Assembly (NCBI RefSeq): GCF_014644295.1
Contig: NZ_BMKK01000008.1
Location: 62,001 to 126,000, forward strand
Source of the DNA: Emticicia aquatilis
Lineage (GTDB): Bacteria; Bacteroidota; Bacteroidia; Cytophagales; Spirosomataceae
Direction: 5' to 3'
Length of the DNA stretch: 64,000 nt
Made by a program: the position numbers and the translations under genes. Positions within the stretch are counted from its first letter, which is position 1. Each line of letters starts with the position of its first letter. The notes beneath the pieces were generated by a model. The model worked only from the letters and a program-made list of their open reading frames with translations. It made no database searches and was not told where the DNA came from. Shown here piece after piece: positions 22,129 through 32,680 of the stretch.

Positions 22129-22473
22129 TCAAATACTTACAAATACCATTCCATCTTCAATCTTCACAGGATAAGTCTTTATTTCGTAGGCATCTCCACT
22201 CAAGCATTGGCCTGATTCGAGCGAGAAAGTTTTCTTGTGAAATGGGCAAGCCACTTTGGGTTCATCTCCCGCCGAACCTATCATTCCTCGTGCCAAAACC
22301 ATTTGTTGTCGATGCGGACAAAGGTTCTGAGTTGCATACCATTCACCACGACGAGTGAAATTAAAAATCGCTATTTGTTCGTCGTTTATCAAAACACATC
22401 CACCGCCATTTTCAGGTATTTGCGTAACCGAACAAGCCATTACCCATGTTTCTGTTGCTGTTTCTACTGTCAT
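22129..22473 (-). CDS. nirD: Nitrite reductase small subunit, Rieske-type
   Basis: 114 residues from the ATG at 22473, chosen because GGGGGAAGAG lies just upstream of it; an in-frame ATG at 22497 would add eight residues before the family's usual start. The fold is that of NirD: a Rieske-like beta domain with the cluster motifs CPHRQQ and CPFHKK. Both Cys-x-His pairs are kept here, although many NirD proteins have lost them, so this copy may hold a [2Fe-2S] cluster. It pairs with NirB to reduce nitrite to ammonium in the cytoplasm and lies just downstream of nirB. Confidence 0.9.
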   Translation of the reverse strand: MTVETATETWVMACSVTQIPENGGGCVLINDEQIAIFNFTRRGEWYATQNLCPHRQQMVLARGMIGSAGDEPKVACPFHKKTFSLESGQCLSGDAYEIKTYPVKIEDGMVFVSI

Positions 22474-22567
22474 AATTTCTCTTCCCCCAAAGAGCATATT
22501 TTTATTTTTTATTAAAATTTATCAAACTTTTAACTCTAAAATGAAGCGTTTCGTCATTAACTCATGA

Positions 22568-25102: not shown

Positions 25103-25119
25103 TGTTTTCCTACGTTTGC
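25103..25119 (-). promoter_or_regulatory. Leader box shared with the porin-nrt leader
   Basis: On the minus strand this reads GCAAACGTAGGAAAACA. The porin leader has GCAAACGTAGGGAAAACA at 30965-30982, a single-base insertion apart, and a weaker copy at 31087-31098. Here it ends 9 bases before the nirB ATG, so AGGA could also serve as a ribosome-binding site. Confidence 0.65.
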
Positions 25120-25126
25120 TGCATTC

Positions 25127-25162
25127 ATTGACTCAGTACGTTTCCCCCATTCTGAAGTCAAT
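25127..25162 (-). ncRNA. nirBD leader hairpin exposing TGGGGG
   Basis: On the minus strand ATTGAC-t-TCAG pairs with CTGA-GTCAAT, a 10-bp stem with one bulged T. The 15-base loop contains TGGGGG (25144-25149). It falls inside the predicted 5' untranslated region, between the promoter at 25212-25242 and the ATG at 25093. The same loop sequence caps three hairpins in the porin-nrt leader. Confidence 0.6.
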
Positions 25163-25186
25163 TATGCTTAAATTTATTTCTTTAAA

Positions 25187-25204
25187 ATAAGTATAAATAC
25201 TCAT
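25187..25204. promoter_or_regulatory. Palindromic operator candidate, nirBD promoter
   Basis: ATAAGTA-TAAA-TACTCAT is an inverted repeat of two heptamers, each fitting the NarL half-site TACYYMT. It lies just downstream of the nirB -7 box, close to the likely transcription start. Similar sites occur at 29575, 30870 and 35838. Confidence 0.6.
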
Positions 25205-25211
25205 TTTTATT

Positions 25212-25332: not shown

Positions 25333-26037
25333 CTAATTTAATGATTTTAATCTTTCTAACTCTATCTTCATTTTTTCAATTACATCTTTGTTTCCAATTT
25401 CTCCATCAAGACTGAAAATGATAAAAACCTTTCCTCCAAAGTCATTTGTAAAATCTTGAAAACTCCTTCTCATTCGTTCAGAAGGAGAATAATTTCCAAA
25501 GTTTGCTTTTGCTGTAATTGGCTTTATTTGAATACCAATTGCTTTATTTTCAATAAAACCTAAATAATCAATGTCTCCTGCATGGTCAAGCTCCGAAGAA
25601 CTTTCTTCAAATTGAATTTCGGGAAAAATTTTAGCTAAACCATCATATATTACAGATTTCTCACGTATATAACCATCAAAGGTTCGATTAATTGTAAGGT
25701 TATAGATATAGTCAATGCAATCATCTAATGTAAGTTGTGCAAATGCTTCTTGCCATTCAGGAATAACTACACCAATAATTTTTTCATGTAGCCTGACCCC
25801 AAGTTCTTGTAGGTTTTCAGTCGTTATTTTGGTATTATTTTTACCATCTGTATAGGCATTTTCAAAATACCATTTTTGCCATTCTTGAATAGTTTTGGGT
25901 TGACACTCTCTAATTAGTGCCATTACAGCACCAACTTTATTTGGGCGAGATAATTGGTAAGTTTGACAAGCATAATTTAGAACTTTTTCCTTTTTGCCAA
26001 AGTCAAGAGAATATTTTGGGGCTTCTTTCTTTGCCAT
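25333..26037 (-). CDS. MjaI-family Type II restriction endonuclease
   Basis: 234 residues, cytoplasmic. The middle stretch CIDYIYNLTINRTFDGYI and the following IYDGL are characteristic of the MjaI family (Pfam RE_MjaI), whose founder recognises CTAG. The PD-(D/E)xK-type nuclease core can be read as Asp in GDIDYLG followed by the strand AIGIQIKP, where Gln replaces the usual Glu. It starts one base after the stop of the methyltransferase gene, the usual tight R-M arrangement. Family is recognised from motif memory, not from a search; CTAG specificity is inferred from the family. Confidence 0.75.
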   Translation of the reverse strand: MAKKEAPKYSLDFGKKEKVLNYACQTYQLSRPNKVGAVMALIRECQPKTIQEWQKWYFENAYTDGKNNTKITTENLQELGVRLHEKIIGVVIPEWQEAFAQLTLDDCIDYIYNLTINRTFDGYIREKSVIYDGLAKIFPEIQFEESSSELDHAGDIDYLGFIENKAIGIQIKPITAKANFGNYSPSERMRRSFQDFTNDFGGKVFIIFSLDGEIGNKDVIEKMKIELERLKSLN

Positions 26038-26038
26038 T

Positions 26039-27148
26039 TTAGAATGCTAAAGTTTGTTGTCCTTTTATTATACTTGTATTTTGAACATATCCAAAACTCA
26101 TTTCTGGAGTAGTAGAATATGTTGTAAGTATCTGATTATCCGTTTGTTGGATATCTGTAAGAAAATTCAAAAGTAGATTAGTTTCTTGACTTGTCATTAC
26201 TGGAAATTTGTAATGCTCATTGAAATGTTTGAAATCTGTATCATTTGAAAGCATACGTTTCTCAACAAAATCAATGTGCGATTTTAATCTTTCACGAATA
26301 AAATCATTAATCAGATTAATTTTATCGGTATATAAATTATTATAAATAGTATCAGATAAGTTTTCGTCAATCTCAAATCCAATACTATTTCTATTAAGCA
26401 TCATGGAAGCCAACGTAGTAGTACCAGTGCCAATAAATGGGTCTAAAATGGTATCGCCTTTGGCAGAATACATATTAATTAATCGATAAGGAATTTCAAA
26501 AGGGTAAGCACCACTACGTTCCCGGGTATTACTGGTATTCATTTTTTGATTAGTACCACGAATTTCCCATAAATCAGAAAACCATTGATTTCGCTCCTCC
26601 CAAAAGAAAGCACTTTCTTGGCGATTTTTCTTTTCTTTTTCAGTCTTGAATACTCTTTTACCTCCTTTTCTAAATATGAGTATATGTTCGTGTTCAAGTG
26701 TAACATAAGCCCCGGCCGCAAGCATACCAGAACCCATAAATTTATTAGGTGAGTTGGTCGGTTTACGCCAAATAATTGCAGGAAGGCAAGAAAAGTTTTT
26801 CTTTAAGAAAAACTGAATAATACGTGAATGATTTGAAAAAAGCTGAAATTCGCCATTGATTGTTCTAGTAGCATCACCTATATTTATACAGACAAATGAA
26901 CCGTTTTTTGTCACTCTGTTTACTTCTTCCCAAACCTTATCGAGTTCTATGTGCATTAATTCAAAAGCTATTTTACCGTCTTGATTCTTAATTGCCTCCG
27001 CAATTGCAGGATTTTGTTTACTCATAATTTCATCCCACATTTCAATCATTGGATATGGAGGAGAGGTAACAACTAAATCTATGGAATTATCCTGCACTTG
27101 GTGCATTTGCTGAGCAAGCCCAAAGTGTATTTCATGTTTTGTTTGCAT
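26039..27148 (-). CDS. Type II DNA methyltransferase, probably N4-cytosine
   Basis: 369 residues. Motif IV comes first (VVTSPPYPMIEMWDE, SPPY being typical of N4-cytosine enzymes), and the AdoMet-binding motif I is C-terminal (ILDPFIGTGTTTLASMML, then NSIGFEID), giving the beta-class order. FVCINIGDA and the PTNSPNKFMGSG stretch lie between. About 110 C-terminal residues have no motif I recognise. It is the modification partner of the MjaI-like nuclease, one base downstream. It starts only 42 bases after the NarL-like regulator stop, so it may be transcribed from that gene's promoter. Confidence 0.85.
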   Translation of the reverse strand: MQTKHEIHFGLAQQMHQVQDNSIDLVVTSPPYPMIEMWDEIMSKQNPAIAEAIKNQDGKIAFELMHIELDKVWEEVNRVTKNGSFVCINIGDATRTINGEFQLFSNHSRIIQFFLKKNFSCLPAIIWRKPTNSPNKFMGSGMLAAGAYVTLEHEHILIFRKGGKRVFKTEKEKKNRQESAFFWEERNQWFSDLWEIRGTNQKMNTSNTRERSGAYPFEIPYRLINMYSAKGDTILDPFIGTGTTTLASMMLNRNSIGFEIDENLSDTIYNNLYTDKINLINDFIRERLKSHIDFVEKRMLSNDTDFKHFNEHYKFPVMTSQETNLLLNFLTDIQQTDNQILTTYSTTPEMSFGYVQNTSIIKGQQTLAF

Positions 27149-30606: not shown

Positions 30607-30813
30607 TTTCGGTTGGTTTGAGTGTTAATCCTTATCTTTTTTATGGTTGAATTTTAGTTGGTAAAAAATTAAAAAATGCAAAATCAATAAAAATAGGTTT
30701 CAAAAAATGCTAAAAATGAAAAATAAAATTGCATTTTTCTAAAAACAAGTTTCAAAATTAAAAGAATTTTAAGTAAAAATGCCAAAAATGACAAAAATAT
30801 GTTGTTTTGTGTT

Positions 30814-30843
30814 TTGAGTATAAAATATTATTTTCTACATTTG
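30814..30843 (+). promoter_or_regulatory. Promoter of the porin-nrt operon (TTG-N19-TACATTTG)
   Basis: TTG at 30814-30816 and TACATTTG at 30836-30843 are spaced by 19 bases, an exact Bacteroidota promoter. It predicts a transcript start near 30850 and a leader of about 275 nt before the ATG at 31127. Confidence 0.75.
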
Positions 30844-30869
30844 AATAAGCAATAACAAAAACGGTATTA

Positions 30870-30887
30870 TTAAGTATAAATAACCAA
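30870..30887 (+). promoter_or_regulatory. Palindromic operator candidate, porin-nrt promoter (one good half)
   Basis: TTAAGTA-TAAA-TAACCAA: the left heptamer and spacer equal those of the nirBD and narK sites, while the right half keeps only TA-C. It lies 26 bases downstream of the -7 box. Confidence 0.4.
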
Positions 30888-30893
30888 AGAAAA

Positions 30894-31098
30894 TTCTGAT
30901 AGTGGGGGCTATCAGAAAATTAATTGAAAGTACTAATCTATTTATTTAAAACTTCAAATGAAATGCAAACGTAGGGAAAACAACATTAAAAGAACAAAAA
31001 ACTGGTGATAGTCGGAGTGGGGGCTTCGTCTTGAACCAAACAAAAAAACCGACCTGACATGGGGGTGTCAAATCGGCTAACGAATCGCAGAACGTAGG
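30894..31098 (+). ncRNA. Structured leader of the porin-nrt operon: three TGGGGG-loop hairpins
   Basis: Hairpin 1 (30894-30917) has a perfect 9-bp stem, TTCTGATAG/CTATCAGAA, closing a TGGGGG hexaloop. Hairpin 2 (about 31003-31038) closes TGGGGG with GGAG/CTTC plus further pairs. Hairpin 3 (31049-31076) closes TGGGGG with TGACA/TGTCA and has an outer CCGA/TCGG stem. A GCAAACGTAGGGAAAACA box (30965-30982) lies between hairpins 1 and 2, and GCAGAACGTAGG follows hairpin 3 (31087-31098). The layout looks like a cis-acting RNA that binds a protein or controls elongation. I do not recognise it as a known class. Confidence 0.6.
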
Positions 31099-31126: not shown

Positions 31127-32680
31127 ATGAAAAAAAATCTATTTCGCAAGTTTGGGCTTGCAATTTTCTTCGCAGTTTCTTTTTTCAAAGCGTCTTATTC
31201 TCAATTTTCATTACTCGGTCAAGTCAGAACTCGCACAGAAATACGTGACGGATTAGGTAATCTTGCACCTTATGGTACAAAATACTCAGCTTTTACATCA
31301 CAACGTACTAGATTAACCTTTGGTTATAAATGGGACAGAGTAACTTTCGGTATGGCCGTGCAAGATGTGCGTGTTTGGGGGCAAGATGCCTCATCAATCT
31401 CAAATGCCGACGGAGGCAAGTTTGGCGTACACGAAGCATGGGCCGAAATCGTACTGGCAAACTCGGCCGACACAACCGTTAAATTCAAACCAATTCAGAA
31501 TCTTTCATTAAAAATTGGTCGCCAAGAGCTTGTATATGACGATGTTCGTTTACTCGGTAACCTCGATTGGCTACAACAAGCTCGCCGTTTCGATGCAGCT
31601 ATCTTCAAAGCACAGCATTTAGGTTGGGCTTTAGACTTCGGTGGTGGTTTCAATCAAAATGCCGACGCTTTCGGTACAAACGGTACATATTATGTGGGTG
31701 GAAATGCTTCTGCAACGGCACTTTCCAATAAAAATGTTACGTTGGCTATTCCAACAGGATTTTTGCCAACCAGCGGTAAAGGCGGAGCTCCAGTTTTGGC
31801 CAATGCGGCCAGCACAAATGGGCAAAACCAAATGTTCAAGTCGTTTCAAATGGCGTATTTGACCCATAAGTTCAAACAAACGAAACTTTCGGTCTTATTC
31901 TTCAAAGATGATTTCTCGAAATACCGTATTGATAGTTTGGGCAATGCTACACAGGGTTACGTATATGGAAGACGTTATGACCAATCGGGTGTAAATTCTC
32001 GCTTTACTTATGGAGCTATGCTCACTGGGCAATTTGGCAATGCTTCGGCAAAACTCGGTAAAGTTGCATGGCAAGCATTTGGGTATGTGCAATCAGGAAA
32101 AGACCGTGATGGCTTGAAAATTACGAATGCCTACTACTACGGAGCAAATTTGATGATGCAAAAAGGACTTTTAAGTTTCGGCCCAGGCTACGAAGTGCTT
32201 TCTGGAAATGATGGTTTTAATACAAAAGCTGGCGAAACGAGCCGTTTCGACCCACTTTATGGAACACCGCACAAGCATTGGGGTTATATGGATTACTTCT
32301 ATGTTGGAACAGGCTCTCCCGTTGGTGGACTCCAAAATGCTTTCTTTAAAATTAAACATGCCGCCCCACGCCTAACAACTACTTTCGATATTCATTATTT
32401 TGCTTTGGCTGCTGATACGCCAAATAAAATGAAAGATGCTCCAGCAGGTGCAAAAATTTCACCGATGTTGGGCATGGAATATGATTTAGTCTTGAATTAT
32501 TCCCTCAATAAATTCACTTCGGTTGAGTTAGGTTATTCTGTAATGAAAGGAAACAACAGCCTCGAATACGTGAAGCAAAATTCGATGGATAAAACCCGCA
32601 AAACCGGCCAGTGGGGATATTTAATGCTCAATATCCGACCTGATTTCTTCTACTCAAAACCAGTGGCAATTAAACAATAG
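31127..32680 (+). CDS. Outer-membrane porin, alginate-export family-like (nitrate locus)
   Basis: 517 residues. A signal peptide (FGLAIFFAVSFFKASYSQ) is followed by alternating amphipathic strands starting FSLLGQVRTRTEIRDGLG and SQRTRLTFGYKWDRVTFGMAVQDVR, the beta-barrel pattern of the alginate_exp family. The repeated SLKIGRQELVYDDVRLLG motif is common to these porins. The chain ends in an aromatic-rich strand (YLMLNIRPDFFYSKP). As the first gene of the operon with nrtABC it probably admits nitrate or nitrite across the outer membrane; that role is inferred from position. Translation follows a long structured leader. Confidence 0.8.
   Translation: MKKNLFRKFGLAIFFAVSFFKASYSQFSLLGQVRTRTEIRDGLGNLAPYGTKYSAFTSQRTRLTFGYKWDRVTFGMAVQDVRVWGQDASSISNADGGKFGVHEAWAEIVLANSADTTVKFKPIQNLSLKIGRQELVYDDVRLLGNLDWLQQARRFDAAIFKAQHLGWALDFGGGFNQNADAFGTNGTYYVGGNASATALSNKNVTLAIPTGFLPTSGKGGAPVLANAASTNGQNQMFKSFQMAYLTHKFKQTKLSVLFFKDDFSKYRIDSLGNATQGYVYGRRYDQSGVNSRFTYGAMLTGQFGNASAKLGKVAWQAFGYVQSGKDRDGLKITNAYYYGANLMMQKGLLSFGPGYEVLSGNDGFNTKAGETSRFDPLYGTPHKHWGYMDYFYVGTGSPVGGLQNAFFKIKHAAPRLTTTFDIHYFALAADTPNKMKDAPAGAKISPMLGMEYDLVLNYSLNKFTSVELGYSVMKGNNSLEYVKQNSMDKTRKTGQWGYLMLNIRPDFFYSKPVAIKQ

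Follow-up and report, generated by a model that had tools for sequence, protein, structure and literature searches.

Hairpins sharing a TGGGGG loop in nitrate assimilation leaders of Emticicia aquatilis and its relatives: a candidate cis-acting RNA

The leader of the nitrate operon of Emticicia aquatilis carries three hairpins that present the same TGGGGG loop on different stems, and similar hairpins stand before the orthologous porin gene in most nitrate loci of the family. On sequence grounds, the best reading of these hairpins is that they represent an undescribed cis-acting leader RNA, of a family absent from Rfam. The window (the whole stretch of 64,000 nucleotides analysed) contains a nitrate assimilation cluster with nirD and nirB on the minus strand and, on the plus strand in order, porin, nrtA, nrtB, nrtC, narK, nasA and a rubredoxin-nitrite-reductase-like gene. 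A LuxR-type DNA-binding response regulator, a PilJ-type sensor kinase and the tetrapyrrole methylase gene cobA belong to the same cluster. Pfam was run on eight of the genes; nirB, nirD, narK and nasA were named from their own sequences. The first gene of the operon encodes an outer-membrane porin of the Alginate_exp family (31127-32680, plus strand), whose ATG lies downstream of the hairpin element.

We propose, with about an even chance of being right, that the hairpins are copies of one cis-acting leader RNA through which a loop-binding trans factor alters translation initiation, coupling the genes of uptake and of nitrite reduction in their response to nitrogen. In each copy, a short stem that drifts freely presents a near-constant loop (UGGGGG in the window), and such copies stand before porin, nrtA, narK, nirB and nirD. 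A putative trans-acting factor, most likely a protein from a gene elsewhere in the genome, would bind the loop, and the bound factor would change either translation initiation at the downstream start codon or what becomes of the nascent mRNA. Uptake and nitrite reduction would thereby follow nitrogen status jointly; transcription would probably be a separate matter, governed by the PilJ-type kinase and LuxR-type response regulator next to these genes. Nitrogen is proposed as the signal because of the identity of the genes that carry the hairpins. A preliminary description had suggested an unrecognised cis-acting RNA controlling nitrate uptake; the undescribed, apparently loop-selected RNA at nitrate genes is retained here, and its control of uptake is something we infer.

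Hairpin 1 (30894-30917, plus strand) has a perfect 9-bp stem and its loop at 30903-30908, 224 nt from the porin ATG. Hairpin 2 (31003-31038, plus strand) has a 5-bp core with mismatched outer pairs and its loop at 31018-31023, 109 nt from the ATG. Both have counterparts in loci L033 and L105, that of hairpin 1 with a changed stem. Hairpin 3 (31049-31076, plus strand) is preceded by seven A and consists of a 5-bp upper stem, a 2x2 internal loop and a 4-bp lower stem, with the loop at 31060-31065, 67 nt before the ATG. It is the porin-leader copy with the most widespread counterparts and the best genome match of model R1, whose training set includes it. All three hairpins are thus confirmed at the positions and with the loop first reported. 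TGGGGG alone is common in the window (16 matches against 15 expected), so the improbable part is that three copies should each be enclosed by a stem of 5 bp or more inside a stretch of 283 nt. Among 20,000 dinucleotide shuffles of the leader, none had three or more same-loop hairpins, 17 had at least two, and 16 had at least one TGGGGG hairpin. Folding of the complete porin leader gave z = -2.3. Because of the preceding run of A, hairpins 1 and 3 resemble intrinsic terminators on the minus strand; a run of A directly 5' of the porin-proximal hairpin was seen in most leaders (window 31042-31078 and counterparts).

Two hairpins of the cluster are additional to those three. In the nirB leader (25128-25161, minus strand), the stem TTGACTtCAG / CTGAGTCAA closes a 15-nt loop, AATGGGGGAAACGTA, that contains TGGGGG; this loop is identical in L033, where the closing stem is different. 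The nirD hairpin, CTCTT-TGGGGG-AAGAG (22479-22494, minus strand), lies directly before the likely nirD start (ATG at 22473) and is also present in L033. The motif AACGTAGG, common to the porin and nirB leaders of the genus, follows hairpin 1 (30968-30975, plus strand), hairpin 3 (31091-31098, plus strand, 36 nt before the porin ATG) and the nirB-leader hairpin (25109-25116, minus strand). The 6.75-Mb genome has two matches to the pattern TGGGGG-N12-42-AACGTAGG, one in the porin leader and one in the nirB leader, and none to the reversed control pattern. As a separate observation, CGTAGG or its complement occurred 13 times in 45 family porin leaders (2.9 expected), 4 times in 39 nirB leaders (0.6 expected) and 7 times in 46 nasA leaders (4.0 expected), with no enrichment before nrtA, narK, the kinase gene or cobA.

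An exact promoter at 30814-30843, followed by a leader of about 275 nt, had been described previously. A Bacteroidota-type match, TTTG-N19-TANNTTTG, does lie upstream of the porin leader (30813-30843, plus strand) and is the only one in the window, but 0.75 matches are expected by chance over both strands. The pattern follows what we take to be the Bacteroidota promoter consensus, and a promoter active at this place is plausible. The 283 nt from this match to the porin ATG at 31127 hold all three hairpins. An ATG at 30958, noted by eye, was considered as the start of a leader peptide and rejected: by eye, it was not kept in L033 or L105. Palindromes resembling AGTATAAATA / GAGTATTTATACTTA were noticed in the window at 30813-30890 and 25180-25210 and recur, by eye, before porin and nirB in several relatives; the LuxR-type regulator may bind there. 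A DNA methyltransferase-like gene and a partner gene (25333-27148, minus strand), both named by eye, separate nirB from the regulator genes; the partner may encode a restriction enzyme. In L033, nirB adjoins the regulator without this pair in between.

We surveyed hairpins of this kind among nitrate loci of the family. NrtA was found in 39 of 222 family genomes and in 15 of 36 genera. Up to 20 kb were taken around 34 NrtA loci and 40 nitrate reductase loci of the order, together with 80 named loci, 16 of which repeat genomes already taken. The family census comprised 51 nitrate loci, six of them without an assessable porin upstream stretch, and used the loops TGGGGG, TGGCGG, TGGCAG, TGAGGG, TGTCGG, TTGGAG, CGGGGG and three similar ones. 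Among assessable loci, hairpins stood upstream of porin in 35 of 45, narK in 17 of 38, nrtA in 10 of 28 and nirB in 5 of 40, with minor counts for nasA (3/41), cobA (1/40) and the rubredoxin gene (1/20). None was found before nirD (0/27), the kinase gene (0/31) or nrtB (0/27). The window's own nirD and nirB hairpins fall outside this count, since the former overlaps the predicted start and the latter has a larger loop. When ten scrambled loops were used as a control, the counts fell to 1 of 45 for porin and 1 of 41 for nasA, and the other genes had none. The loop conservation in orthologous leaders on which the preliminary description had let its reading depend is therefore present. Ten of the 45 porin leaders yielded no hairpin under the criteria applied (L036, L038, L046, L049, L050, L054, L066, L106, L107 and L108). 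A TGGGGG hairpin below these criteria was seen by eye in L036 and L038, and hairpins with CGGGAA or TTGGAG in L049, L050 and L054 of genus g22. Two loci with clusters resembling those of the window's family, L159 and L148, are titled Flavobacterium sp. SUN052 and Cellulophaga sp. BC115SP; mislabelled records or transfer are the likely explanations.

Stems change in a compensating manner. An alignment of 47 hairpins over an 8-bp stem scored 1.05 for covariation, whereas shuffles scored 0.24 and slid versions 0.17-0.29. The value of 1.05 is inflated because the rows had been preselected for pairing of the inner five pairs. Pairing cells made up 83.5% of the stem alignment and 43.6% in shuffles. 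In a selection-free test, every TGGGGG of 35 loci was sorted by place first and then tested for a stem of at least 5 bp. Such a stem enclosed 41 of the 58 sense-upstream sites, 4 of 146 coding sites, 0 of 7 antisense-upstream sites and 0 of 11 other intergenic sites. For TGGCGG the corresponding counts were 15 of 38 (sense-upstream), 3 of 421 (coding) and 0 of 8 (antisense-upstream). This leaves 17 of 58 TGGGGG and 23 of 38 TGGCGG sense-upstream sites without a 5-bp stem. On the opposite strand (CCCCCA), at nearly the same sites, only 26 of 53 had a stem of at least 5 bp; G-U pairs are lost there, which argues for an RNA rather than a DNA element. Applied to 50 phylum-wide hairpins aligned with MAFFT, RNAalifold returned no pairs, probably because bulges shift the lower stems out of register. 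The earlier proposal that differing stems with a constant loop reflect selection on an RNA loop agrees with the compensating stems and the sense-strand bias in orthologous leaders. A cis-acting structured leader RNA is well supported by compensating changes, strand bias and kept position, with RNAalifold negative at the level of the phylum.

The distance between loop and start codon was also kept. Among leaders with a detected hairpin, the 16 repeat loci excluded, the next ATG followed the loop at 55-72 nt in 52 of 59 porin leaders and 8 of 9 nirB leaders; outside the family this count is partly circular, because the loops used there were first noticed near -65. The spacing differs before nrtA (26-45 nt) and narK (11-159 nt), and the rule is thus not universal. 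In twelve loci a TGGGGG or CGGGGG hairpin lies ~200-255 nt before porin (L039, L042, L055, L110-L115, L118, L120 and L159). In all twelve, an ATG at 63-67 nt opens a five-codon ORF, M-(K/E)-(K/N)-x-x-stop, and porin begins ~140-190 nt further on. For L159 the spacing list used a later loop than the mini-ORF count, and the mini-ORFs that the list gives for L034 and L035 begin at an ATG 4 nt upstream of that of porin and out of frame with it. In the Lacihabitans-type loci L050, L053 and L054, a second TTGGAG hairpin was seen by eye, followed ~56 nt on by ATGTAA, a start codon directly joined to a stop. Translation is favoured as the step affected mainly because the hairpin is coupled to a start codon, as spacing and mini-ORF indicate, rather than to porin as such. 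The 140-190 nt between mini-ORF and porin in the twelve long leaders seemingly contain hairpins of their own.

Genome-wide searches were performed with model R1. The model was built from preselected hairpins including those of the window, and its scores on the training loci are therefore partly circular. At E up to 10 it matched the own genome 9 times. Of the five top matches, four lay in the nitrate cluster, all in the training set, and the fourth-ranked one lay before trpF. At E up to 0.1, R1 matched 40 of 222 family genomes. Of 29 newly returned family loci that were inspected, 21 were nitrate loci, several without nrtA. The other eight are read as chance: L090, L096, L097 and L103 lie in same-strand frames, L087 and L089 opposite a frame, and L099 and L104 between genes running on the opposite strand. 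At the level of the order, 23 of 390 genomes had a match at E up to 0.05. Outside the family, G244 and G259 are Xanthocytophaga-type nitrate loci (overlap with L122; distance to nasA). Among 15 other extra-family loci, 13 were examined: four in same-strand frames, four in opposite-strand frames, one at a frame edge and four with no frame of 80 aa; the two further loci were too short.

These results bear on the idea that a general nuclease or its adaptor recognises the hairpins as sites of mRNA processing or stabilisation, which would set the ratios of operon transcripts and not be regulated by nitrate. Copies do sit in intergenic positions of a single operon (ahead of porin, narK and nrtA), where processing sites are expected. 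A general factor would, however, have targets throughout the genome, whereas the inspected matches cluster at nitrate loci, both in the own genome and in the family; the start-codon spacing kept before porin and nirB also speaks against it. We regard processing elements as unlikely.

The trpF match deserves mention. Shortly before the trpF ATG, a hairpin-like stretch with a G-rich loop was present in 11 of 11 genomes of the genus (L070:1501-1542 in the own genome; L227-L237), the loop being TGGGGG in nine, TGGGG in L231 and TTTAGGGC in L237. A second hairpin ~25 nt upstream has a C-rich loop, ACCCCG, ACCCCA or GTCCCG. In L237 both loops were changed together (TAGGGC with GTCCTG). From its sequence, the pair looks like a cis kissing-loop switch.

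Within a genome, the nitrate loop is nearly constant and the stem appears to drift freely. Twenty-three family loci have hairpins at more than one of the four genes porin, narK, nrtA and nirB. A single loop was used in 19 of these loci, and in 22 when loop base 1 was ignored; many of the 23 are close relatives and do not count as independent events. In L039, L110 and L111 the loop was TGGGGG at porin and CGGGGG at nirB; both U-G and C-G could close the loop there. L058 mixed TGAGGG and TGGGGG. Six loci of genus g29 (Runella-type) had TGGCGG only, twice before porin and once before narK; L118 had CGGGGG at porin and nirB, and L203 (Adhaeribacter) CGGCAA at both. There were further exceptions: L036, L037 and L038 carry TGGCGG before nasA and TGGGGG elsewhere, and in L064 the porin loop TGGCAG is the complement of the nirB loop CTGCCA. 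Genus g33 is mixed, with TGGGGG genomes (L055, L112-L114, L120) and one TGGCGG genome (L063). The loop consensus in most of the family is U-G-N-N-G-G, with UGGGGG in the window.

Loops that vary between lineages and mostly agree within genomes are what two pairing RNAs would produce, and the loop might thus kiss the complementary loop of a trans-encoded small RNA, with the lineage-specific loops as a sign of co-evolution. In the same genus, the G-rich trpF loop seems to kiss a C-rich loop, with co-change in 1 of 11 genomes. When the noncoding DNA of 47 loci was searched, however, the only complementary loops were the hairpins' own opposite strand and roughly twelve scattered matches. Three genomes have both TGGGGG and TGGCGG, and one small RNA would pair unequally with the two. 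A partner in cis was likewise not found for the nitrate loops, the nitrate leader having no CCC run. A small RNA is on balance improbable, though it merits consideration. The reader of the proposed leader RNA is more likely a protein than a small RNA, given that some genomes have two versions of the loop and that its positions 3 and 4 vary.

Beyond the family, a hairpin of the same build was found near the porin start in other Cytophagales, Chitinophagaceae and Sphingobacteriaceae. A run of A accompanies a stem that is GC-rich in its lower part, short in its upper part and usually bulged, and the loop is specific to the lineage: TGGCGG in Xanthocytophaga, TGGCAG in Niastella and two loci of family f4, CTGCCA in Rhodocytophaga, CGGCCA in Pontibacter and Botryobacter, CGGCAA in Adhaeribacter, GTCGCA in Mucilaginibacter and TTGGCG in Paraflavitalea. 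By position and build, we judged these hairpins to be homologous to those of the window. Among 100 non-redundant porin leaders, the segment from -95 to -35 folded with z < -2 in 36, compared with 7 for the segment upstream; for the window's own proximal segment, z was only -1.3. Such a hairpin was not seen in the two Flavobacterium leaders read (L191, L193), and AT-rich hairpins in Flavobacterium and others lie outside the hairpin family.

The lineage loops also bear on a G-quadruplex, which the preliminary description had offered as an alternative. The window leader does contain three GGGGG runs, but they are spread over 160 nt and lie within predicted hairpins. Since relatives keep the hairpin with the loops TGGCGG, TGGCAG, CTGCCA or GTCGCA, their G-runs are missing at the same place, and we drop the quadruplex as exceedingly improbable.

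We compared the hairpins with known RNA classes. With Rfam 15, no match exceeded the gathering threshold in the window, and three leader matches were at chance level (E 3.8 to 5); a match to a known family, which would have spoken against a new element, was thus found neither in the window nor in the leader. A search of largely non-subscription literature returned no such element in Bacteroidota.

The closest likeness is to ANTAR-target RNAs, namely the NasR/NasT leaders and the dual hexaloops of EutV: short hairpins with six-base loops, often paired, in nitrate assimilation leaders, with a trans-acting reader implied. An ANTAR-type antiterminator target as in nas or eut leaders would fit these features. 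According to PMC8934654, ANTAR-target hexaloops have A in the first position and G in the fourth. Family loops instead start with U, or with C before some nirB genes and one porin, and those named above for other lineages with U, C or G; the earlier remark that TGGGGG loops break the ANTAR rule holds, position 1 being U. The ANTAR domain (PF03861) was not detected above the cut-off in any of 33 genomes, with one sub-threshold match in G040, although the 14 control genomes were also without it, so that the sensitivity of this search is unproven; within that limit, the count agrees with the earlier statement that no ANTAR protein is encoded. Between hairpin 1 and the porin ATG there was no terminator-like site on the sense strand that a hairpin could overlap, as in ANTAR targets; one such site lies inside the porin gene (31146-31161). 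In contrast to ANTAR targets, copies of the window's hairpin family also occur between genes and near start codons. An ANTAR target is therefore very improbable.

A small tandem-hairpin riboswitch that binds its ligand directly, on the analogy of guanidine-II (mini-ykkC), was also considered. Guanidine-II resembles the nitrate leader in having two small same-loop hairpins in one leader, and nitrate leaders may carry two or three. The terminal loops of guanidine-II are ACGR (PMC2864571); the nitrate-leader loops differ in not being ACGR, in numbering one to three copies and in varying by lineage. Single copies stand before nrtA, nirB and often narK, and a ligand pocket should forbid the observed changes of loop (TGGGGG, CGGCAA, GTCGCA). 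Such a riboswitch would be quite improbable.

Targets of CsrA/RsmA carry GGA in the loop, and their hairpin loops near start codons control translation. Their position is shared by the nitrate-leader hairpins, most of whose loops lack GGA. CsrA/RsmA targets were rejected as a candidate class: TGGGGG has no GGA, although the lineage loop TTGGAG does, and CsrA (PF02599) was found in 0 of 18 genomes, the control being positive in 3 of 14. Phage coat-protein operators and the iron-responsive element are loop-specific and stem-tolerant, and the latter is common to several mRNAs of one pathway. The nitrate-leader hairpins are like both in being loop-specific and stem-tolerant, a comparison by description that claims no sequence relation.

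Taken further, the proposed leader RNA may define a nitrate RNA regulon of Bacteroidota, in which one loop reader acts at start codons, the loop code is swapped by lineage in several targets at once, and part of the family uses a route through a mini-ORF (five-codon or start-stop). We put forward this wider view tentatively and give it somewhat less than an even chance. Bacteroidota are said to initiate translation largely without Shine-Dalgarno sequences, and to our knowledge post-transcriptional control and the regulation of nitrate assimilation have been little explored in this phylum. The element is compact, with many natural variants, a clear loop code and a sharp start-codon spacing, and cultured carriers are among the loci (named strains of Runella, Arcicella, Niastella, Mucilaginibacter and Adhaeribacter). 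The loop could be used as bait for the regulator, which makes translation control in Bacteroidota testable.

The nitrate clusters were searched for a candidate reader. Apart from the kinase-regulator pair, they contained no recurrent RNA-binding candidate that was also present in the own genome. A TrpD2-like protein encoded beside 17 of 75 clusters was considered as RNA binder and rejected, since it is absent from the own genome and occurs in 7 of 24 genomes searched. A Pfam scan of three recurrent neighbours (the TrpD2-like protein, a secreted protein and Nitr_red_assoc) gave no pointer to RNA binding. The TrpD2-like protein had a weak Glycos_trans_3N match (L051, L063, L117, L121, L123, L130-L132 and others). 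The Nitr_red_assoc protein (PF09655) lies beside the cluster in six loci, for example at L109:428-913. By eye, ten loci were seen to encode a LytTR-like response regulator and seven a kinase-like membrane protein, most of them belonging to genus g29 (L051, L052, L056, L057, L059, L061, L107, L109, L111 and L118).
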